A stretch of 41,012 nt of DNA. Source: Magnetococcales bacterium (GTDB taxonomy: Bacteria > Pseudomonadota > Magnetococcia > Magnetococcales > DC0425bin3). Below, in pieces: positions 23,164 to 33,866 of the stretch. How positions within the stretch are numbered: position 1 is the stretch's first letter; each line of letters opens with the position of its first letter. Where the stretch lies: positions 1 to 41,012 of the forward strand of contig JADGCO010000036.1 of the NCBI GenBank assembly GCA_015228935.1, given 5' to 3'. The position numbers and the translations under genes are program-made. The notes under the pieces were generated by a model. That model had not been told where the DNA came from. It was given only the letters and a program-made list of their open reading frames with translations, and did no database searches.

Positions 23164-23220
23164 ACATATCTCCCACTGGTGGTTTTGTATGACTGCTCTA
23201 AAAAAATTCGTTCCCATTCA

Positions 23221-23420
23221 GTACCCGGTTTCCGGGCCGTATTCCCGGTTTCCGGAGTATATTTCAGGTTTCCGGGCCGTATTCCCGATTTCCGGAGTGT
23301 ATTTCCGGTTTCCGGACCGTATTCCCGATTTCCGGGCCGTATTCCCGGTTTCCGGGCAGTACTCCTGGTTTCCGAAGTGTATTCCCGGTTTCCGAGCCGT
23401 ATCCCCGATTTTCGGTTCCA
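23221..23420. repeat. Ten-unit 20-bp tandem repeat between DUF2170 and PspA-family genes
   Basis: Ten head-to-tail 20-bp units with consensus ATTCCCGGTTTCCGGGCCGT fill most of the spacer. There is no length variation in the register. Each good unit contains a mini inverted repeat CCCGG-TTT-CCGGG. Units 2, 4 and 8 share a variant end (GGAGT or GAAGT). The period is not a multiple of three and no ribosome site precedes it, so it is non-coding. It lies in what would be the transcribed leader of the PspA-family gene. Confidence 0.95.
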
Positions 23421-23455
23421 TGATGTTGCCACCACGTTTGCTGCGGTCGGGGGGA

Positions 23456-23887: not shown

Positions 23888-24089
23888 GCTGGTCATTGAG
23901 GTGCGGTGTTGGCCGTGGGTTGCCTGGTACCTGCCCTGCTGGTCATTGAGGCGCGGTGCTGGCCGTGGGTTGTGCCTGGTTCCGCCCTGCTGGTCATTGA
24001 GGCGCGGTGCTGGCCGTGGGTTGCCTGGTACCTGCCCTGTGCGGGTCATTGATGCGCGGTGCTGGCCGTGGGTTGCTGGTATCTGCCCT
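23888..24089. repeat. Four-unit 50-bp tandem repeat overlapping the 3' end of the aminopropyltransferase-like gene
   Basis: Four units of 50, 51, 50 and 51 bp begin at 23888, 23938, 23989 and 24039 and share the core GGTCATTGAGGCGCGGTGCT. The last unit overlaps the 3' end of the minus-strand gene at 24046 and encodes its final residues and stop. The other three lie in the spacer before the DUF2170 gene. The pattern looks like amplification of a gene end. Confidence 0.92.
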
Positions 24090-25782
24090 GTTCCCGTACC
24101 CAGGCCTCGTGATGATACCGGTACATGTGTTGGGATCCAAGGCGGTTGACCTGAATATTCTCCAACCCGGAAAAAAATCCCTGCCCGAAGGCAAAGGCTC
24201 CCACCATGATTTCCCGGGTCAGCCAGGGATCGCGCAGGCTTGCGGGATCCAGGTTGCGCAGGCGCTGGCTGGCGGGCAATTCCTGTTGGGTGGCCAGGGT
24301 CCAACCCCACTCCCCAAAACTGGGTACGTTCTGATGGTAGGGTTCGACATGCTTGAACCCTGCATGGCGCAACGTCACCCCCACACACAAAAAGGCCTCC
24401 CGCGCATGATAGGGGGAAGTGGATTGCACTGCCAATGTTCCATCGTGCGTCAGGAGATTTTTCAGTTTGGCATAGAAATAGGCGGAGTAGAGCTTGTCCA
24501 GGTCCGGATGGCCCGGATCGGGCAGATCCACCAGGATGACATCGAACGCTTGCTTGTCGGCCAGCAGGGCGTCCACCGTCACAAAGGCATCTCCATAGCG
24601 GATCCGGACCCTTGGGTCGGCGAACGAACCGCCATTGAGTTGCAAAAACGGGGCGTTGATCGGGCGGCCCGCAACCTGAACGGGATGCGAAAAGAGCGCC
24701 ACCACCTCCGGATCCAGTTCCAGAAGTGTCACCGAATCCGGATTCCAGCGCAGGACATTGCGCAGGGCCAGACCGTCACCGCCGCCGATGATCAGGATTT
24801 GTTTCTGGCGTGCGGCGGCGGCCATGGCCGGTTCCACGAGCATGGCATGGTAGATGTGTTCGTCGTTGCTGGAAAATTGCAGGCGACCGTCGATATAGAA
24901 TCGATATACCGGTTGCCGCTGCGGGGAGCCGGCCCGCCGGGTCAGCGTGAGTCGCTGGTAGGGGGTGTTGGTGCGATGAATGACCTGGTCCTGGTAGAGG
25001 GTGTCTTCCAGCCTTTCCGACCAGGATTGGCCATGATGCATGACCACGAGGGTGAGTGTCAGGACCAGAAAAAGGATCATGAGCAGCCATTTTCCACCCT
25101 GGATGAATCGCCAGTAAAGGATCAGAAACAGCAGGCCGGCCAGAACGTTGACCAGGGCCGTGGCGGCGGCGGCCCGGGTGATCTCCATGCCGAGCATGGC
25201 CAGAATCCAGCAGGCGGCCCCGATCCCGGCCCCGATATAATCGGCTCCATAGATTGCCCCCGTATTGTGGATCAAATGCTGCTCGTGCAACAGTTCCCGT
25301 ACCCGTGCTATCAGGGGAATTTCCATGCCGATCATGAATCCCATGATGATGCTCATCAGGTAGGGAGCCAGGCGGACCAGGGCGAGCAGATCGGCAAAAA
25401 AATTGCCCTGGGGTGCCAGTTCTTCGGGCAGGCCGAAGGTTTCGGCGATGATCTGTGGAAACAGATGGGCAAAGGAAAAGACCGTGGCCAGAAACAACAC
25501 CATGCCGGCTCCCAGCAGGGCTATGAGGGCCTCCAGCCAGGCAAAACCGGTAAAAGGGGCGCGTACCAGCCGGGCTGCGAATGACCCGGCACCCATGGAG
25601 ACGATCATCAAACCGATGATGGCGTAGATCACGGTCTCTACCGCACCGAGGATCCGTCCGGCATAATGGGCCAGGAGATATTCGTAGATCAGACCGCAAC
25701 CGGCAGTCAGGGCCGTGATGACGATCAAAAACAGATCGTGGCCCAGCAGGGCGGTTTGTTTCGAGCTGAAATGAATTTTCAT
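24046..25782 (-). CDS. Membrane-anchored spermidine synthase-like (SpeE-type) protein
   Basis: This is a 578-residue protein. The first about 220 residues form roughly seven hydrophobic helices (starting LFLIVITALTAGCGLIYEYLL). The C-terminal soluble domain has the aminopropyltransferase/methyltransferase core: ILIIGGGDGLALRNVLRW (near 330), VTLLELDPEVV, YGDAF and DVILVDLPDPGHPDLDKLY (near 418-432), which includes the region of the catalytic Asp. Such TM-fused SpeE homologues recur near PspA/DUF2170/DUF2491 genes; the real acceptor substrate is uncertain. ATG 25782 starts the natural N-terminus but has no ribosome site, and lies only 22 bases from the divergent FGE gene start. The last residues are encoded by a tandem repeat unit. 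Confidence 0.88.
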   Translation of the reverse strand: MKIHFSSKQTALLGHDLFLIVITALTAGCGLIYEYLLAHYAGRILGAVETVIYAIIGLMIVSMGAGSFAARLVRAPFTGFAWLEALIALLGAGMVLFLATVFSFAHLFPQIIAETFGLPEELAPQGNFFADLLALVRLAPYLMSIIMGFMIGMEIPLIARVRELLHEQHLIHNTGAIYGADYIGAGIGAACWILAMLGMEITRAAAATALVNVLAGLLFLILYWRFIQGGKWLLMILFLVLTLTLVVMHHGQSWSERLEDTLYQDQVIHRTNTPYQRLTLTRRAGSPQRQPVYRFYIDGRLQFSSNDEHIYHAMLVEPAMAAAARQKQILIIGGGDGLALRNVLRWNPDSVTLLELDPEVVALFSHPVQVAGRPINAPFLQLNGGSFADPRVRIRYGDAFVTVDALLADKQAFDVILVDLPDPGHPDLDKLYSAYFYAKLKNLLTHDGTLAVQSTSPYHAREAFLCVGVTLRHAGFKHVEPYHQNVPSFGEWGWTLATQQELPASQRLRNLDPASLRDPWLTREIMVGAFAFGQGFFSGLENIQVNRLGSQHMYRYHHEAWVREQGRYQQPTASTAHQ

Positions 25783-25804: not shown

Positions 25805-27301
25805 ATGAAACAACTGTTGCAGGAAATCCAGAAACACCTGGCCAAGGGATCCTATCGTACCCTTGTGCAGGTTCGATTTTCCCTGGTTGGTGGTCTGCTG
25901 GTCAAACTGGGCTGGCAGATTCACGATCCTCTGGAAGTGAATGTGGCTTTCGAAGCGGTGGACGGTCGTCTGGCACCAACCATACCCCTGGCACTCATGG
26001 TTCCGGGTGAGTCGGCACCGGCGGTCATTTTTGAATTTCATCCTCCTGGCAGCATCACCAAGGATTTGTTGCCGCGTTCCCGACCTGGAACCTCATTTTA
26101 CATCATGACGGACGGTCCTGTCTGGCGGTGTTACTATCAGGAGATGCAAAAATCCCAGCCGGAACTCTGTATCAAAACCTTCGATCTGGTCCAGGCCGAT
26201 CTGGATGATGTGGGAAATTTTCTGATCAGCATTCTGGGGCGTGAGGCGCAGGTCAATGGTTCGGCCCGTCAGCGTCTGGAGAAAAAACTGGCCCTTGGGG
26301 TGAAGAAAAAACTGGAGCCATTGCGTCGCATGTTGCCCAAGGCGCAAGCCGTCGCCAGCAATCCGCCGCATCCGGAACTTTCCACGGTCCTCCAGGTCAT
26401 GGCCAAAAATGCGGGGGTTGCCGTGACTGCGGAGGAGGTTGCCATGTTTCTCCAGGAGGTGAAGGAGACCAGGGTGCAGGAGGTAACGACCCGGATTGCC
26501 GTCGCCACCCAGGAAAAAAAGGAGTGGATCGAACCTGTCACCGGCATGCCTTTCCTCTGGGTACCGGGGGGGCGTTTCATGATGGGCAGCCTGGATGACG
26601 AGGCCGGACGCCTGCCCAACGAGGGGCCGGTCCATGAAGTGACTTTGGATGGGTATTGGTTGGCCAAATATCCGGTCACCTTTGCCCAGTGGAAAAAGGT
26701 GACCGATGCCGAATCCCGCAACTCTCCCTGGGCGCGTGACCGCAAAAAAACCAAGGAAGAGCTGGAGCGGGAAGAGAACGAAAAAAAATTGCTCAAGGTG
26801 AAGGGGGATTTTCCCGTGGAGACGGTCTTGCGCCAGGAGGCTTTGGAGTTTATCGACAAGCTGGGACTGCTGGGTGGCGAGGGGTCCAAATTGCGCCTGC
26901 CGACCGAGGCGGAGTGGGAGTATGCGGCCCGTGCCGGTTTTTCTTCCACCTATCCGTTTGAAGGCGATCCGCGCAAGGAGTTGGAAAATCATGCCTGGAT
27001 CAACACCAACTCCAAGGGTGTGGTCCAGAAGATTGGCACCAGGAAACCCAATGCCTGGGGTTTTCACGACATGCTGGGCAATGTCTGGGAGTGGGTTGCC
27101 AATGCCTATTATGTTTATGGGGAAAGCCCGGTCACCAATCCCACCGGACCGGAGAGGGGCAATGTCTGGGTGCGGCGCGGCGGCAGTTGTCGCAGCAACG
27201 CCAAGGCCTGTCGCCCGGCCCGGCGCAACAATATTCAGGTGGATGAGGCCGAAGCCAAAAACAGCGGCGGACTTGGTTTTCGCCTGGCCAAGAGTGGTTG
27301 A
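25805..27301 (+). CDS. FGE-sulfatase domain protein with degenerate HsdR_N-like N-terminus
   Basis: This is a 498-residue protein in two parts. Residues 15-115 have the strand order of the HsdR N-terminal nuclease fold: VRFSLVGGLLVKLGW, an EVNVAFEAVDGRLAP strand, IPLALMV, AVIFEFHPP and FYIMTDGPVWRCYY. The usual catalytic Asp and the E-x-K pair are replaced (IPLAL; FEFH), so it is probably inactive. After a helical linker, residues 245-498 form an FGE-sulfatase (SUMF1) domain: PGGRFMMGS, a YWLAKYPVTFAQW strand, LRLPTEAEWEYAARAG, GFHDMLGNVWEWV and RRGGSCRSNAKACRPARR. Cys462 and Cys469 are spaced C-x6-C, not C-x4-C as in true FGE, so sulfatase activation is doubtful. A charged Lys/Glu insertion lies at 310-335. 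ATG 25805 has a GGAGG ribosome site. Role unknown. Confidence 0.82.
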   Translation: MKQLLQEIQKHLAKGSYRTLVQVRFSLVGGLLVKLGWQIHDPLEVNVAFEAVDGRLAPTIPLALMVPGESAPAVIFEFHPPGSITKDLLPRSRPGTSFYIMTDGPVWRCYYQEMQKSQPELCIKTFDLVQADLDDVGNFLISILGREAQVNGSARQRLEKKLALGVKKKLEPLRRMLPKAQAVASNPPHPELSTVLQVMAKNAGVAVTAEEVAMFLQEVKETRVQEVTTRIAVATQEKKEWIEPVTGMPFLWVPGGRFMMGSLDDEAGRLPNEGPVHEVTLDGYWLAKYPVTFAQWKKVTDAESRNSPWARDRKKTKEELEREENEKKLLKVKGDFPVETVLRQEALEFIDKLGLLGGEGSKLRLPTEAEWEYAARAGFSSTYPFEGDPRKELENHAWINTNSKGVVQKIGTRKPNAWGFHDMLGNVWEWVANAYYVYGESPVTNPTGPERGNVWVRRGGSCRSNAKACRPARRNNIQVDEAEAKNSGGLGFRLAKSG

Positions 27302-27369
27302 GAGGCAAAATTTTTGTAGACTTTTTGGTCCTGTTGTGGAATATTTTCCGGCAAAGGAGGCAAGAAGCC

Positions 27370-27741
27370 ATGACAACGATTACCTATGATACGTTGAAAT
27401 TCGTGCGTCGTCTCAAGGATGCCGGAATTCCGGAAAACCACGCCGAAGCCATATCCGAAGCTTTCAAAGAGGCTCAGACCTCTCAGATGGAAGATTTGGC
27501 GACCAAAAAGGATTTGTTGGAACTGGATGGACAGGTGTCCAGCAAGGCCGACGTGGCCAAGGTGGATTTTCGCATTCAGGATCTGAATACGAAAATAGAA
27601 ACCTTGAACGCAAAAATTGAAACCACCAGGATGGAGCTGCGTCGGGACATCGAAACGGCCAAACTGGAGGTCATCAAATGGTTGGTCGGTGCATCGGGAG
27701 CCATCGTTGCCTTGGTCAAACTCCTTCCCGGGGGACATTGA
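27370..27741 (+). CDS. Coiled-coil protein with C-terminal membrane helix (DUF1640-like)
   Basis: This is a 123-residue protein. The N-terminal TYDTLKFVRRLKDAGIP and AEAISEAFKEAQ helices are followed by a long coiled coil (about 40-100) with repeating K-I-E-T-L/T-N heptads, and a terminal hydrophobic helix EVIKWLVGASGAIVALV. This arrangement resembles DUF1640/CCDC90-type proteins, which are membrane-anchored trimers of unknown bacterial role. ATG 27370 has a GGAGG ribosome site nine bases upstream; the longer frame from 27298 overlaps the FGE gene and is unlikely. It lies 68 bases after the FGE gene and is followed by a truncated copy of its own N-terminal part. Confidence 0.8.
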   Translation: MTTITYDTLKFVRRLKDAGIPENHAEAISEAFKEAQTSQMEDLATKKDLLELDGQVSSKADVAKVDFRIQDLNTKIETLNAKIETTRMELRRDIETAKLEVIKWLVGASGAIVALVKLLPGGH

Positions 27742-27780: not shown

Positions 27781-27948
27781 ATGACTATCGCTGCTTTTGA
27801 TACGCTTGAATTTGTTGAAACTCTTGAATCTTCCGGATTTACCAAGGAACAATCCAAGGGAATGGTTGATGCCTTCAAAAAGGCCCAGGATGCCCAGCTC
27901 AAGGAGTTGGCTACCCCGCTTCCGGCTTTGAAGACGTTGCTGGGATAA
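27781..27948 (+). CDS. Truncated paralogue of the coiled-coil protein (55 residues)
   Basis: The start MTIAAFDTLEFVETLESSG and following QSKGMVDAFKKAQDAQLKELAT align with the first 45 residues of the gene at 27370. After that the sequence diverges (PLPALKTLLG) and stops, so the coiled coil and membrane helix are missing. A GGAGGAGG ribosome site seven bases or less upstream is intact, so a short peptide could still be made. It is followed directly by a remnant of an FGE gene end. It may be a decayed duplicate or, less likely, a retained short regulator of the full-length protein. Confidence 0.6.
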   Translation: MTIAAFDTLEFVETLESSGFTKEQSKGMVDAFKKAQDAQLKELATPLPALKTLLG

Positions 27949-27956
27949 AGCTTGAC

Positions 27957-27996
27957 GGTGGACTTGGCTTTCGTCTGGCCAAAAGCGGTTGAGAGG
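27957..27996 (+). pseudogene. 3' remnant of a second FGE-sulfatase gene
   Basis: Forty bases match the 3' end of the intact FGE gene (27266-27305) at 35 of 40 positions and encode the same GGLGFRLAKSG-stop. All five differences are synonymous third-codon changes (GGC/GGT, GGT/GGC, CGC/CGT, AAG/AAA, AGT/AGC). The remnant must come from a second gene that diverged under protein-level constraint before most of it was lost. Confidence 0.75.
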
Positions 27997-28007
27997 TTGG
28001 CCGCATC

Positions 28008-28082
28008 ATGGTTGGTCATGAGTTCGATGTCCATGCAATGCTGAGGCATTTTGCCTTGGACGGGGGGATGATAAAGGAGTAG
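28008..28082 (+). pseudogene. Cut-off N-terminal segment of the nuclease gene
   Basis: An ATG at 28008, with GAGAGG upstream, opens MVGHEFDVHAMLRHFALDGG and MIKE before a TAG at 28080-28082. The frame is the same as that of the downstream nuclease CDS at 28089. Between them, frame 2 reads ESFGWSRSKDLLAL over 28082-28123, which flows naturally into the downstream VGETLKVLLGP if frames are switched. This indicates two compensating frameshifts (net in-phase) in an originally continuous gene, or sequencing errors at these points. Confidence 0.5.
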
Positions 28083-28088
28083 AGTCCT

Positions 28089-29054
28089 TTGGATGGTCGC
28101 GCAGCAAAGACCTGCTGGCACTGTCTGGTCGGTGAAACGCTGAAAGTGCTGCTGGGACCCGTTGGCGTTGAAGTGCGTTCGGAAGTCCAGGTCGTTTCTC
28201 TTCCGCCCAAGGCTGACCTGATTCTGATCCAGCGCCAGGGAGGCGGTTGGACAGAAGAACAGCGTTTGTTCCTGGTCGATGGATTGCGGGATCTCGATGC
28301 AGATCATATTCTGATCGAAATCAAGGTTACCGAAAGCCTGCATGAAGGTGTTCTGTCCCAGATCACGGTATATGATACCTTGTATCTGGAAACCGCCTGT
28401 TTGGAGCGGCGGCAGTTGCGGAGCGTCATTATCAGTTCCACAACCCCCCAACCTGGCTTCCTTGAGCGGTTTGCCTTTGAACCCGTCGGACCATGTGGTG
28501 TGTATGAAAGTAAACCGCGTTGGGGAGGTTCTGTCCGCCTGATTCTGCTGAACGAACTGACGGATGAAGCCCAAAACGCACCTTTGAAGTGTTTTTCAAG
28601 TAGGCGTGAGGAGCGAAAAAAGGCGTTCGAAACGATCAAACATGCAGGGTTGCTCAAACTCTCAATTGCATTTGAGCGAATCATGGTCGGCCTGTGGAGG
28701 TTGCTGATGAAAGGTGCATTGGATATAGATATTCCAGAAATAGAGGGGATTACACCCGAATATGTCTCCGGGCTTGGAAAGGAATGGCTTGACTGGTTGG
28801 TAGACGCGACACCCGATGAGGATCTTGCGGCTATGCCAAAATTTGGGCGTCTCTTGGTGCAAAGTCGTCAGGAAGACAAGGCATCCACCCTGCTTCGAAT
28901 CCTGCGGCGTCGTTTTTCCGACCTGCCTGTCTGGGTTGAGTCCAGGGTTCATGCTGCCAATCTGGACACCCTGGATGCATGGATAGATCGGGCAATCGAT
29001 GCGCGTTCGTTGCAGGATGTTTTTGGCGACGAAACAACCGGCAGAACGATGTAA
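28089..29054 (+). CDS. PD-(D/E)XK nuclease-like protein with DUF4351-like C-terminus
   Basis: This is a 321-residue protein from a TTG start that has an ideal AAGGAG ribosome site nine bases upstream. The nuclease core is complete: Glu32 in RSEVQVV, Asp43 in PPKADLILIQ, Glu77-x-Lys79 in ILIEIKV, and Gln91/Tyr95 in QITVYD. This is the E...D...E-x-K...Q...Y order of PD-(D/E)XK enzymes. Residues 270-315 (LLRILRRRFSDLP, AIDARSLQDVF) resemble the DUF4351 end of the nuclease at 19220, but the nuclease halves differ. The true N-terminus probably began at 28008 and has been cut by frameshifts; the first 12 residues here are likely out of the ancestral frame. The catalytic residues all lie downstream of the damage, so activity may survive by reinitiation. 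Confidence 0.78.
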   Translation: MDGRAAKTCWHCLVGETLKVLLGPVGVEVRSEVQVVSLPPKADLILIQRQGGGWTEEQRLFLVDGLRDLDADHILIEIKVTESLHEGVLSQITVYDTLYLETACLERRQLRSVIISSTTPQPGFLERFAFEPVGPCGVYESKPRWGGSVRLILLNELTDEAQNAPLKCFSSRREERKKAFETIKHAGLLKLSIAFERIMVGLWRLLMKGALDIDIPEIEGITPEYVSGLGKEWLDWLVDATPDEDLAAMPKFGRLLVQSRQEDKASTLLRILRRRFSDLPVWVESRVHAANLDTLDAWIDRAIDARSLQDVFGDETTGRTM

Positions 29055-29146
29055 ATGCAACATATTGAATCTTGCATGTAATTATAAGACAGGATCCGGC
29101 TCCCGGGATCGGTTCAATTGACGGTCCTTGATGCGCCGAGGTGAGA

Positions 29147-31948
29147 ATGCCAGAACGGTATCAAACGGTTTGCAACATGAATAAAATTATATATAAATAT
29201 ACTCCAAAAATTTTCATCAGCTATTGCACCCGTTCCGCAATCTCCGTGGCACTTGGCGATCAGTTGAAAGAACGCCTGGAAGCAAACGGATTTGACACAT
29301 TCCTGGACCGGTATGATGTGCAAGTTGGGGGGAGTTTTGTCGAGCAAATCGGTGCTTCCCTTCATGACTGCCATGGAGCCGTTCTGCTTCTTGCCGAAGA
29401 GGCCAAAAAATCTGTCTGGGTTGCCGATGAAGCGGCCTTCCTGATGACCAGGAAGCAACAGTTTGAAAATTTCAAGATTGTTCCGGTTGTGATTCCGCCG
29501 GTCAAATCTGTTGAGGCGTTTTTTGGCGAGCGGAGCGAACTTTGGAAAGTTTCCAAGATTCAGGGAGTTGTTGTTGATTCCGACAATCTGGCACGGTCTG
29601 TTGACAAGATTGTTGAAGCATTCGAACCGCTCAAAAAAATACGGGATTTTTGGGGGAAACAACTGCCTCTTTCCTCCTTTGGTACCCTTGTTGATACCCA
29701 GGGTGTGCAACGTCTGGATCCCCGGGCGCGATTTTTGCCGCTGATCGGGCGGGAAGGGGAGTTGGATGAGTTGTATGGCTGGTTGAATGGGGGTAAACCG
29801 GTTTCGGTGCGTGCCTTGATTGGTGGTGCCGGGCGCGGCAAGACCCGTCTGGCCATGGAGTTGGTTCTTGCTGTGGAGGCATGGGGATGGCATGCCGGAT
29901 TTTTGTCGGGTGAGGCTTTGACAAAGCTGGTGGCCCAGGCAGAGTGCGGGTGGTCCTGTCCGACGCTGGCCGTGATTGACTATGCTGCTCCCCAGGCTGC
30001 GATCCTTCACCAATGGCTGAAGCAGTTGTCGGAGCGCCAAAAAAAGCAGCGTCCGGTGTCCGGAAAAGTCGTTCCCTTGCGGATTTTATTGTTGGAACGG
30101 ATGGCCGAGGAGGGGTCTGGCTGGTGGCAGACTTTGCTGGGTTCTGGCAGTTGGAAGGATGCGGATGTGCGGGATTTGTTGGATCCGCCCAAGCCGGTGC
30201 ATTTGGACAGGCTCTCTTCTGCACAGGGAGAGGAAATTTTAATCCAGATGCTGCGACAATCGGGTGTGCGACACCCCACGGCACCGCAGATGCCGCCAAA
30301 AGAGCCGGAGTGGCGTGGGGAGCCGTTGTTTGCCATGATGGCTGGGCAGTTGTTGGCGGAGAGGGAGGAGCTTCCTGCCACCCGGGATGCGTTAGCGCTT
30401 ATTCTGGCCGGGCGGGAGAAGGGCCGCATCGCTGGTTTTGCGCGTCGTGGAGAGCATCAGGAAGAGCAGGGGATCATGCTCAACCATTTGGCGGCGTTTG
30501 CAACTTTGTGTGGTGGCCTGGACGGATCCGCCGTTTTTCGGTTAGCGCAAACGGAGAAAGATGCCTTGGGCCTCTCTTCGGCAGGGGATCCCTGGATCCT
30601 GGCTGACCTGTTGCACCAGGCCTTGCCTGGCCCGCAAAACGGCGTGGAGGCCTTGCGCCCGGATATCATTGGCGAGGCGTTTTTCTTGTTGGCCCTGGGT
30701 GGCGGTCGGCAAGCGGCAAGTCTGGCAGCTGTGCAGCGGGCCTTTTTGGTGGCAGATAAAAAATGTATTGCGTCCCTGGTTCGCTGTGGGCAGGATTTTG
30801 TTTATGCCGGGCACCAGGAACCCCTCGCTTGGCTCGGTGCATTGGTTGAGAATCCGGATGTTTCCCTGGATATGCTGTGGAGCATCGAACAAGAGTTGCC
30901 CCACAACAGCCTTGGCCTGGATGCCTTTGCGGCGAGATTGCGGCAGAGTTTACTGGATCGTTACAGAGCATTGGTTTCGGATGACAAAACCAACGGAACC
31001 TTTATTGCCATGCAAGCAATAGCAGCAAACAACCTGTCTATTTCCTTGGGTAATCTTGGCTGGCACGAGGCGGCGCTTGCGACGATTGAGGAAACGGTTC
31101 GGATACAGCGTGAATTGTCTGCGAATCGAACTGACGTATTTATGCTGGAATTGGCTAGGTCGCTCAACAACCTGTCCAACAGATTGAGTGCCCTTGGCCG
31201 TCGCGAGGGAGCGCTTGATGCGATTGAGGAAGCTGTGCGGATATATCGTGAATTGTCTGTGGTTCGGCCTGACGCATTTATGCCGGATTTGGCTTCTTTG
31301 CTAAACAACCTGTCCTACAGATTGCGTGACCTTGGCCGTCGCGAGGAAGGTCTTGCGGCGATTGAGGAAGCTGTGCGGATGTTTCGTGAATTGTCTGTGG
31401 ATCGACCTGGCGCATTTATGCCGGATTTGGCTTTATCGCTCAACAACCTGTCCGTTTTGTTGAGTGACCTTGGCCGTCGCGAGGGAGCGCTTGCTGCGAT
31501 TGAGGAAGCAGTACGGATACGGCGTGAATTGTCTGCGGATCGACCGGACGCATTTATGCCGGATTTGGCCCAGTCGCTCAACAACCTGTCCCTCGGATTG
31601 AGTGACCTTGGCCGTCGCGAGGAAGCGCTTGCGGCGATTGAGGGAGCTGAGCGGATCTATCGTGAATTGTCTGAGGTTCGACCTGACGCATTTATGCCGG
31701 ATTTGGCCATGTCGCTCAACAACCTGTCCCTCAGATTGAGTGCCCTTGGCCGTCGCGAGGAAGCGCTGGCGGCTGCCGAGGAGGCGGTGACGACGCTGGC
31801 ACCGTATTTCATGAAGCTGCCGGAGGCCTTTGGGCAGTGGATGGGGACGTTTGTAGGTGTTTATGAAAAGAGGTTACGCGAGTTGGAAGGTGAAGCAAAA
31901 ATTATGCCAATATTAGAAGAAATCAAAAAACTCCTGCCGGGCACGTAA
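29147..31948 (+). CDS. TIR-STAND NTPase-TPR protein, candidate immune receptor
   Basis: This is a 933-residue three-part protein. A TIR domain (about 20-160) starts KIFISYCTRSAISVALGDQL and has Glu95 in WVADEAAF, at the place of the catalytic Glu of NAD-cleaving TIR domains. A STAND-type P-loop NTPase (about 195-550) has the entry motif FLPLIGREGELDELYGWL, Walker A GGAGRGKT (226-233) and Walker B TLAVIDYA (Asp278). Six 46-residue TPR-like repeats (about 620-900) of pattern SLNNLS..LS.LGRREEALAAIEEAVRI follow. TIR effectors joined to STAND sensors are known in antiphage defence: target binding by the repeats triggers oligomerisation and NAD depletion. That role here is inference. ATG 29147 has a GAGGTGAG ribosome site. 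It starts 92 bases after the nuclease gene, with a small AT-rich gap between. Confidence 0.85.
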   Translation: MPERYQTVCNMNKIIYKYTPKIFISYCTRSAISVALGDQLKERLEANGFDTFLDRYDVQVGGSFVEQIGASLHDCHGAVLLLAEEAKKSVWVADEAAFLMTRKQQFENFKIVPVVIPPVKSVEAFFGERSELWKVSKIQGVVVDSDNLARSVDKIVEAFEPLKKIRDFWGKQLPLSSFGTLVDTQGVQRLDPRARFLPLIGREGELDELYGWLNGGKPVSVRALIGGAGRGKTRLAMELVLAVEAWGWHAGFLSGEALTKLVAQAECGWSCPTLAVIDYAAPQAAILHQWLKQLSERQKKQRPVSGKVVPLRILLLERMAEEGSGWWQTLLGSGSWKDADVRDLLDPPKPVHLDRLSSAQGEEILIQMLRQSGVRHPTAPQMPPKEPEWRGEPLFAMMAGQLLAEREELPATRDALALILAGREKGRIAGFARRGEHQEEQGIMLNHLAAFATLCGGLDGSAVFRLAQTEKDALGLSSAGDPWILADLLHQALPGPQNGVEALRPDIIGEAFFLLALGGGRQAASLAAVQRAFLVADKKCIASLVRCGQDFVYAGHQEPLAWLGALVENPDVSLDMLWSIEQELPHNSLGLDAFAARLRQSLLDRYRALVSDDKTNGTFIAMQAIAANNLSISLGNLGWHEAALATIEETVRIQRELSANRTDVFMLELARSLNNLSNRLSALGRREGALDAIEEAVRIYRELSVVRPDAFMPDLASLLNNLSYRLRDLGRREEGLAAIEEAVRMFRELSVDRPGAFMPDLALSLNNLSVLLSDLGRREGALAAIEEAVRIRRELSADRPDAFMPDLAQSLNNLSLGLSDLGRREEALAAIEGAERIYRELSEVRPDAFMPDLAMSLNNLSLRLSALGRREEALAAAEEAVTTLAPYFMKLPEAFGQWMGTFVGVYEKRLRELEGEAKIMPILEEIKKLLPGT
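31013..31840 (+). repeat. Six-unit 138-bp repeat array encoding the TPR region
   Basis: Units start at 31013, 31151, 31289, 31427, 31565 and 31703. The second to fifth are strongly similar at DNA level, with shared stretches such as CTCAACAACCTGTCC and CTTGGCCGTCGCGAGG. The first and last are more diverged, as expected for an array growing by internal unequal exchange. The unit is 46 codons, so changes in copy number keep the frame. Confidence 0.92.
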
Positions 31949-32057
31949 GATTCCGAGTCAATTTCCTTGCGTAGAACAGGGATGGCATCTCCCGGAATGA
32001 TGCGCTAAAATACTCCTTTTTTGGTCACCAATCCGCGCCAATATAAAGAGTATGCCC

Positions 32058-33005
32058 ATGTCCTGGATCTGGATTTTGCCCGCATTGCTGGGAATCACCC
32101 TGGGGGTGACATTCTACCCCCTCTTTTCCCGTCGCGGCAGTATGCCCCTGCCCGTGGGACTGGAAGGCAATCCCCGCGTGGTCCTCGAAGACCGACGGGA
32201 TATGCTGCTCCGGCAGATCAGGGAACTGGAACTGACCGGGGGGGAGACAACCCCACCCTCCGGAAATGACCCGGGTGCCGGGACGATACGCGCCGACCTG
32301 GAAGAGGAACTCGGCTCCATCCTGGATCAACTGCAAACCGCCGACCGGACAACATCCCCCGCCAAAACCGCCGACAATCCCCGCAATGCCGTGGATATCG
32401 CCGCCGGAATATCGGTCCTGCTGGTGATTACGGTGTTGAGCGGCGGCCTGTACCTGTTTCTGGGTACCCCTTTTCCCCCACAAGCATCGGCCATGCGCCA
32501 AGCCTCGCCGCATGGCGCGGGCGGCAATGCACCGGATATCAATACCATGGTGACCAATCTGGCCGCCAAAATGCGGCAGAATCCGGATGATCTGGTCGGC
32601 CATATCCGCATGGGACGCGCCTATGCCGTCCTGGAACGCTACACCGAAGCCATCACGGCATACACCCACGTCCTGACCCGCGATCCCCAGAATACGGATG
32701 CCGCCGCCGGCCTGGCCAGAATTCTCGTGGAAAGCGACCAGGAAGATCAATTCAAACGCGGTGTCGAACTGTTCCAGGGTGTCCTGCAACAACAGCCAAA
32801 CCACCTCGAAGCCCTGTGGGTCATGGGATCCATCGCCTTTCAAACCGGGGATCGCGACATGGCCCTGACCCAGTGGCGAAAACTCCTCAAACAGGCCCCA
32901 GCCGATTCACCCATGCGCCAGGAAGTGGAACAGGCAATCCGCCAGGCCGAAGCCTTGCCCCCCAGGGCACAGAAATCCGCTCCGGAAACCAGGAGTTCCC
33001 CGTGA
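32058..33005 (+). CDS. CcmI-like TPR protein of cytochrome c maturation type
   Basis: This is a 315-residue protein. TM1 lies at about residues 3-22. The following loop contains EDRRDMLLRQIRELE, a Leu-zipper-like helix typical of CcmI. TM2 lies at about 112-135, and a periplasmic TPR region at about 155-290 includes RMGRAYAVLERYTEAITAY and EALWVMGSIAFQTGDRDMA. CcmI delivers apocytochrome c to the heme ligation complex. The architecture fits, but no other ccm gene is nearby, so a different TPR adaptor is possible. ATG 32058 is preferred because AAGAG lies seven bases upstream; ATG 32052 is only one base from it. It is followed after 121 bases by tatA. The 103-109 bases before it show no clear terminator for the TIR gene. 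Confidence 0.72.
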   Translation: MSWIWILPALLGITLGVTFYPLFSRRGSMPLPVGLEGNPRVVLEDRRDMLLRQIRELELTGGETTPPSGNDPGAGTIRADLEEELGSILDQLQTADRTTSPAKTADNPRNAVDIAAGISVLLVITVLSGGLYLFLGTPFPPQASAMRQASPHGAGGNAPDINTMVTNLAAKMRQNPDDLVGHIRMGRAYAVLERYTEAITAYTHVLTRDPQNTDAAAGLARILVESDQEDQFKRGVELFQGVLQQQPNHLEALWVMGSIAFQTGDRDMALTQWRKLLKQAPADSPMRQEVEQAIRQAEALPPRAQKSAPETRSSP

Positions 33006-33413: not shown

Positions 33414-33866
33414 ATGTTGGGATTCGACTGGTCAGAGGTTCTGGTCATCATGGTGGTTGCCCTGATTGTGATCGGGCCGGACAAACTTCCCGAAGTGGCC
33501 CGTGGTCTCTCCAAAGCCATGCGCCAGATCCGGCGGCTGACAAATGAAATTCGGAACAGCATCAATCTGGAAGAAATCACTCACCAGGGACGCGAGTATA
33601 TCGGTGCGGAAGGCATGCCGCCTTTCACCCCCGCATCCACATACACACCACCGCCATCAGTCGATTTTGACAGGGAATTTTCAACCTCGGAACCCCCACC
33701 AAAAGATATCGTCGCAGAATCAGCCAAAACATCCCCGGTCTCCGAACCGGCTCCCAAAAGTGTCGCAGAATCAGCCAAAACATCCCCGGTCTCCGAACCG
33801 GCTCCCAAAAGTGGCGCAGAATCGACCAAGGAAGGTGGGGAAACACGCCCCAGTCCCCAATCATGA
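33414..33866 (+). CDS. tatB: Sec-independent translocase subunit TatB
   Basis: This 150-residue protein has the conserved Glu8 in the N-terminal membrane helix, the GPDKLPEVARGLSKAM hinge and amphipathic helix, and a long Pro/Ser/Glu-rich tail. The tail contains a perfect 51-bp tandem duplication (VAESAKTSPVSEPAPKS twice) and the start of a third copy. TatB forms the twin-arginine signal receptor with TatC. Its stop codon overlaps the tatC start (ATGA), so the two are translationally coupled. Confidence 0.94.
   Translation: MLGFDWSEVLVIMVVALIVIGPDKLPEVARGLSKAMRQIRRLTNEIRNSINLEEITHQGREYIGAEGMPPFTPASTYTPPPSVDFDREFSTSEPPPKDIVAESAKTSPVSEPAPKSVAESAKTSPVSEPAPKSGAESTKEGGETRPSPQS
33711..33812 (+). 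repeat. Perfect 51-bp tandem duplication in tatB
   Basis: Units 33711-33761 and 33762-33812 are identical over all 51 bases, and a third, shorter and diverged unit begins at 33813. Identity over the full length points to a very recent duplication or ongoing copy-number exchange. The unit is 17 codons. Confidence 0.95.

Follow-up and report, generated by a model that had tools for sequence, protein, structure and literature searches.

The locus considered here raises the question of how the end of a gene comes to stand a second time, downstream of an intact copy of that gene. The window, which is the whole 41,012-nucleotide stretch of DNA that was analysed, is contig C36 of a 4.7-Mb draft Magnetococcales genome in 197 contigs. 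Within it, a gene of the FGE-sulfatase fold (referred to here as the FGE gene) is followed by two coiled-coil genes, CC and CC', and these are followed by 40 bases that match the 3' end of the FGE gene. The original prediction took this arrangement to be what is left of a duplicated FGE/coiled-coil cassette, one of a former array of paralogous cassettes, from which a working FGE gene had been deleted. Alternatively, the 40 bases could be the old 3' end of the same FGE locus, displaced by recombination.

The 3'-end remnant (27957..27996, + strand) and the end of the intact gene that it matches (27266..27305, + strand) are identical at 35 of 40 bases, or 87.5%, and each consists of twelve codons including the stop, plus GAGG. 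The runner-up site for the FGE 3' end inside the window reaches 23/40 and the chance maximum is 25/40, as obtained from 60 order-2 Markov simulations of 41 kb on both strands, so the match is real. The five differences (remnant/intact GGT/GGC, GGC/GGT, CGT/CGC, AAA/AAG and AGC/AGT) are all synonymous third-position transitions, a claim of the original prediction which the codon comparison bore out, and the two ends encode the identical peptide GGLGFRLAKSG followed by a stop (TGA) and GAGG. Five synonymous changes out of five would arise in the absence of selection with p ~0.001-0.003, indicating that both FGE ends diverged inside working genes. The remnant is a genuine, slightly changed copy of the last twelve codons of the FGE gene. 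A degenerate tail pattern with 3 mismatches allowed occurs at only two sites genome-wide, both at this locus, and is absent from 60 relatives; the viral contigs searched for the pattern gave no match either. The original prediction would have fallen had the 40 bases been a dispersed repeat unrelated to FGE genes, and that pattern of occurrence is not what was found. Derivation of the tail from one of the other FGE-fold hits in the genome, of which there are 27 in all, was rejected, as none of the FGE loci retrieved reaches 27/40, and the recovered 3' ends of the remaining 26 hits have no resemblance to the remnant. A search elsewhere in the genome for nucleotide-level pieces of a second FGE copy returned none.

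The intact FGE gene (25805..27301, + strand) encodes a protein of 498 aa, which belongs to the FGE-sulfatase fold (PF03781) with a profile score of 155.4 bits against a cut-off of 23.3 (E 2.8e-45, residues 251-496). Its N-terminal domain of ~230 aa has no Pfam match and is conserved in the protein and nine orthologues. True formylglycine-generating enzymes have two copper-binding cysteines after a GGS motif (GGSxxCxxxxC). The ten aligned orthologues instead read GGS-x-R-S-x-x-x-x-C, the second Cys being invariant, and since the first Cys is replaced by Ser in all of them the protein is, judging from this motif, probably not a formylglycine-generating enzyme. Amino acid identity among the orthologues is 81% with a species of the same genus (G002), 60% with one of the same family (G003), and 42-50% further out, and the GGLGFRLAKSG motif is conserved across the family. 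Every related Magnetococcales genome that has an orthologue has a single copy. A protein search of the contigs of other genomes returned only distant relatives and the G003 contig, and the literature on FGE in Magnetococcales or on DUF1640 held nothing informative. Upstream of the FGE gene, a 20-base repeat array (GGTTTCCGGxCCGTATTCCC) lies at 23184-23435, beside 51-base repeats at 23888-24091.

The extent of divergence between the two FGE ends gives some indication of their history. The tail and the intact gene differ at 5/11 third positions, while the intact gene and its G002 orthologue differ at 167/405 third positions (41%) in codons for the same residue; the distance between the two FGE ends is thus close to that between two species of the genus. 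At 4/5 of the differing sites it is the remnant that carries the G002 base, which hints that the intact gene may be the changed version and the remnant the older local version, though a 4:1 split has a one-sided p of ~0.19 and eleven codons do not suffice to build a tree. G003 sides clearly with neither end. No mosaic break is visible inside the intact FGE gene, whose third positions differ from those of G002 to a fairly uniform extent over its length.

Between the two FGE ends lie the coiled-coil genes. CC (27370..27741, + strand) encodes a CCDC90-like (DUF1640) coiled-coil protein of 123 aa that is a member of PF07798 (E 3.1e-14; 53.6 bits, above the cut-off of 33.5). The CC region has matches of 80% nucleotide identity on contigs C21 (27355-27587) and C147 (27358-27477), and homology of CC to other genomic copies begins at ~27355, which places the FGE gene outside the repeated unit. 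CC' (27781..27948, + strand) encodes a CCDC90-like paralogue of 55 aa whose score of 31.7 bits narrowly misses the gathering cut-off of 33.5. Its nearest relative is an 80-aa gene on contig C9 (C9:38409), itself a sub-threshold PF07798 match, with 85% amino acid identity over 46 residues. The two align end to end except for a single 75-nt gap, so that CC' has lost 25 codons in frame from its interior, between GCYACC repeats, and with them the hydrophobic segment. Since CC' retains the native C-terminus LPALKTLLG and its stop codon, the FGE remnant, which starts 8 bases past that stop, did not truncate it; the junction (27949..27956) reads AGCTTGAC, and here the FGE homology stops. The original prediction took 27781-27948 for a truncated copy of its coiled-coil neighbor. 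With 37% amino acid identity to CC, this is ruled out, and CC' is a different paralogue. CCDC90-like genes are very abundant in the genome, with about 34 profile hits, and are often paired.

The order in which a CC-type gene is followed by a CC'-type gene recurs on contigs C3 and C10, in both cases without an FGE gene; in the C10 pair, the CC' member has decayed and has an in-frame stop. Among 27 FGE-fold and 40 CC-type hits in the genome, the two kinds of gene are neighbors only at the locus under study and in one loose case on contig C176, where they are 1.2 kb apart. The repeated unit is the coiled-coil pair, and not an FGE/coiled-coil cassette. The further cassettes that the original prediction led one to expect are thus wanting in this genome beyond the C176 case, and in relatives as well, where neither a second FGE gene nor a CC gene occurs in the FGE 3' flank of any of the eleven genomes whose flank was read. 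Gene order at the locus itself does not bear out a duplicated cassette either. The order is FGE, CC, CC' and FGE tail. Had an FGE-CC cassette been duplicated, the second FGE end should be followed by a coiled-coil gene, but a DUF4351 gene is found there. A former array of paralogous cassettes fares no better, given that FGE is single-copy in relatives and that CC and CC' are not recent duplicates.

The sequence right of the remnant, from 27997, begins TTGGCCGCATC and soon passes into the DUF4351-family gene unit (28014..29071, + strand; ORF 28089-29054), whose PF14261 score of 24.7 bits is just under the cut-off of 25.0. About ten copies of this family (eleven matches in the genome), 72-88% identical, are present here, and the family also occurs in relatives. 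Three copies have upstream sequence of 55-75 bases in common, which at this locus starts at 28014-28033. The tail was considered as part of this mobile-looking unit and rejected, as the common sequence starts no earlier than 28014 and no other copy has the tail. The FGE tail is therefore wedged between two unrelated multi-copy units, CC' on one side and DUF4351 on the other. Further right is a gene (29141..31948, + strand) for a 935-aa protein with a TIR, NTPase-like and TPR architecture (Pfam TIR_2 1e-12, TPR_10 7e-30). It has weak matches to Thoeris-type TIR models and from its sequence is a possible defence gene. Tandem repeats of 138 bases are found within it, at 31028-31879.

The right edge of this region is marked by a CcmH-like TPR gene (32052..33005, + strand), the first gene of a CcmH/tat block (32052 onward) that is conserved in all three closest relatives and does not lie beside FGE in G002. 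A 51-base perfect tandem duplication (33711-33812) is present in the conserved block, inside the ORF 33414-33866 between the CcmH-like gene and RNase J. G002 has both the block extending from pilus genes to FGE and the CcmH/tat block in conserved form, on separate contigs. CC, CC', the FGE tail, the DUF4351 gene and the TIR-TPR gene form an accessory stretch between the two conserved blocks. The right-hand neighbors of FGE vary by genome, being an M20 peptidase gene in G002 and other DNA in G003, and the synteny break sits at the FGE 3' end. The orthologue of the M20 peptidase gene of G002, considered as a candidate for the original downstream neighbor, is on contig C122 in this genome, whereas the tail pattern is confined to C36.

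The reading that we favor, with moderate confidence, is that the 40 bases once formed the 3' end of the same FGE locus and were displaced, which makes them a recombination scar. Donor DNA from a related lineage would have carried the 3' part of an FGE gene followed by the CC-CC' pair. The donor FGE part would have paired with the resident FGE gene as a homologous anchor, and the other side would have been joined illegitimately within the final codons of that resident gene, leaving the 8-base junction past the CC' stop. FGE would have stayed intact, wearing the incoming 3' end, and the last 12 codons of the resident gene would have been shifted 0.69 kb rightward together with the DNA downstream. 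The footprint would be no different in the mirror case, with the remnant side imported. Both this one-sided-homology mechanism and its direction are what we infer from the layout. The insert has a homologous start at the FGE 3' end and has its other end at 8 unmatched bases past the CC' stop, as illegitimate recombination would leave it. The divergence of the tail matches the distance between this genome and G002, so the tail fits an orthologue from a related lineage. Neither the donor arrangement nor the arrangement before insertion, with the FGE end running straight into the sequence from 27997 onward, was found in any genome, the nearest being ~77% identical over FGE with different right-hand neighbors, and the junction has no microhomology that would prove the mechanism.

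Several other explanations have to be weighed against displacement. It is possible, though clearly less probable, that a second, paralogous FGE gene stood under selection between CC' and the DUF4351 gene and was deleted from just past the CC' stop as far as its own final 12 codons. This is the model of the original prediction, which is supported in so far as the remnant stems from an FGE gene that diverged under purifying selection, whether the gene body was then lost or displaced. Synonymous-only differences and third-position divergence at the 40% level suit an old functional paralogue, and its deletion would leave a footprint identical to that of displacement. On the other hand, no relative that has FGE has two copies, and if the duplication dated back to the species split, G002 should show it, which it does not. 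CC and CC' are not duplicates of one another, linkage of FGE to CC elsewhere amounts to the one loose C176 case, and no CC follows the tail. Displacement is favored over a lost paralogue because a single event suffices, whereas the paralogue requires duplication, divergence, insertion of CC' and deletion.

The layout of the locus also resembles that of elements which integrate at the 3' ends of genes, with direct copies of the FGE end exactly bracketing a 691-bp unit. The last 40 bases of FGE might accordingly have been duplicated locally when the CC pair was inserted, as a target-site duplication or attachment-site-like repeat, and then have diverged. We consider this unlikely since the 0.69-kb insert has two coiled-coil ORFs only, with neither a recombinase nor inverted ends, and a non-coding copy should have gained non-synonymous changes, of which there are none, unless the element brought a replacement end with it. 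Joining of two strains' versions of the locus during metagenome assembly is more doubtful still. The draft genome is fragmented, the related genomes are MAGs, and the two FGE ends differ in the way that two related lineages do, but the exact matches that the two ends share (10 bases at most) offer an assembler no long exact repeat at the junction to join through, and the genome is estimated to be 100 for completeness and 1.75 for contamination. Conservation of GGLGFRLAKSG in the family could be taken to favor a convergent match, yet a score of 35/40 against a null maximum of 25/40 leaves chance or convergence with practically no standing, and the lack of a third copy in the genome and 60 relatives leaves a short dispersed repeat with none to speak of.

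Displacement of a 3' end by incoming DNA has precedents. In the immunity-gene arrays of the Vibrio cholerae T6SS, displaced 3' ends of effector genes are found, for which homology-facilitated illegitimate recombination was proposed (PMC5361080). As here, the incoming module matches one end of the resident gene, and the resident 3' end survives downstream beside its older neighbors. The systems differ in that toxin/immunity modules were repeated into arrays in V. cholerae, whereas a single event with a CCDC90-like insert would account for the FGE locus, where no toxin or immunity pair was identified. Rhs C-terminal displacement, as it is cited within PMC5361080, leaves orphaned 3' regions in strings, and there too a 3'-end remnant sits downstream of an intact homologue; in that account, however, Rhs tips diverge in sequence, while the FGE 3' ends encode an identical peptide. 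Homology-facilitated illegitimate recombination is on record for three naturally competent species and for conjugation in E. coli (PMC3240628). Ordinary decay of a paralogue, by tandem duplication and then partial deletion, would also produce a short gene end next to an intact gene, but the flanking genes here are not duplicated and none of the relatives has a tandem copy. Elements that integrate at the 3' end of a gene similarly bracket the inserted DNA with direct repeats of that end, attL and attR, but the insert here is without an integrase and the repeats are 87.5%, not nearly 100%, identical.

The FGE remnant is an ordinary, known kind of genome scar, and a cassette array is not needed to explain it. 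A gene-end remnant with synonymous-only differences does not by itself prove a former array of paralogues, as a displaced orthologous end looks alike. One could go further and propose that the FGE 3' end is a recurring exchange point in Magnetococcales, at which accessory genes are swapped by C-terminal displacement as in Rhs and the T6SS, but this is a long shot; equally speculative is the suggestion that the genes swapped there would include coiled-coil pairs, DUF4351 genes and TIR-TPR defence-like genes. If the displacement reading is true, the scrap of FGE sequence is the trace of a single exchange between related lineages, at a junction of accessory genes, and the coiled-coil pair would be shown to move as a unit.
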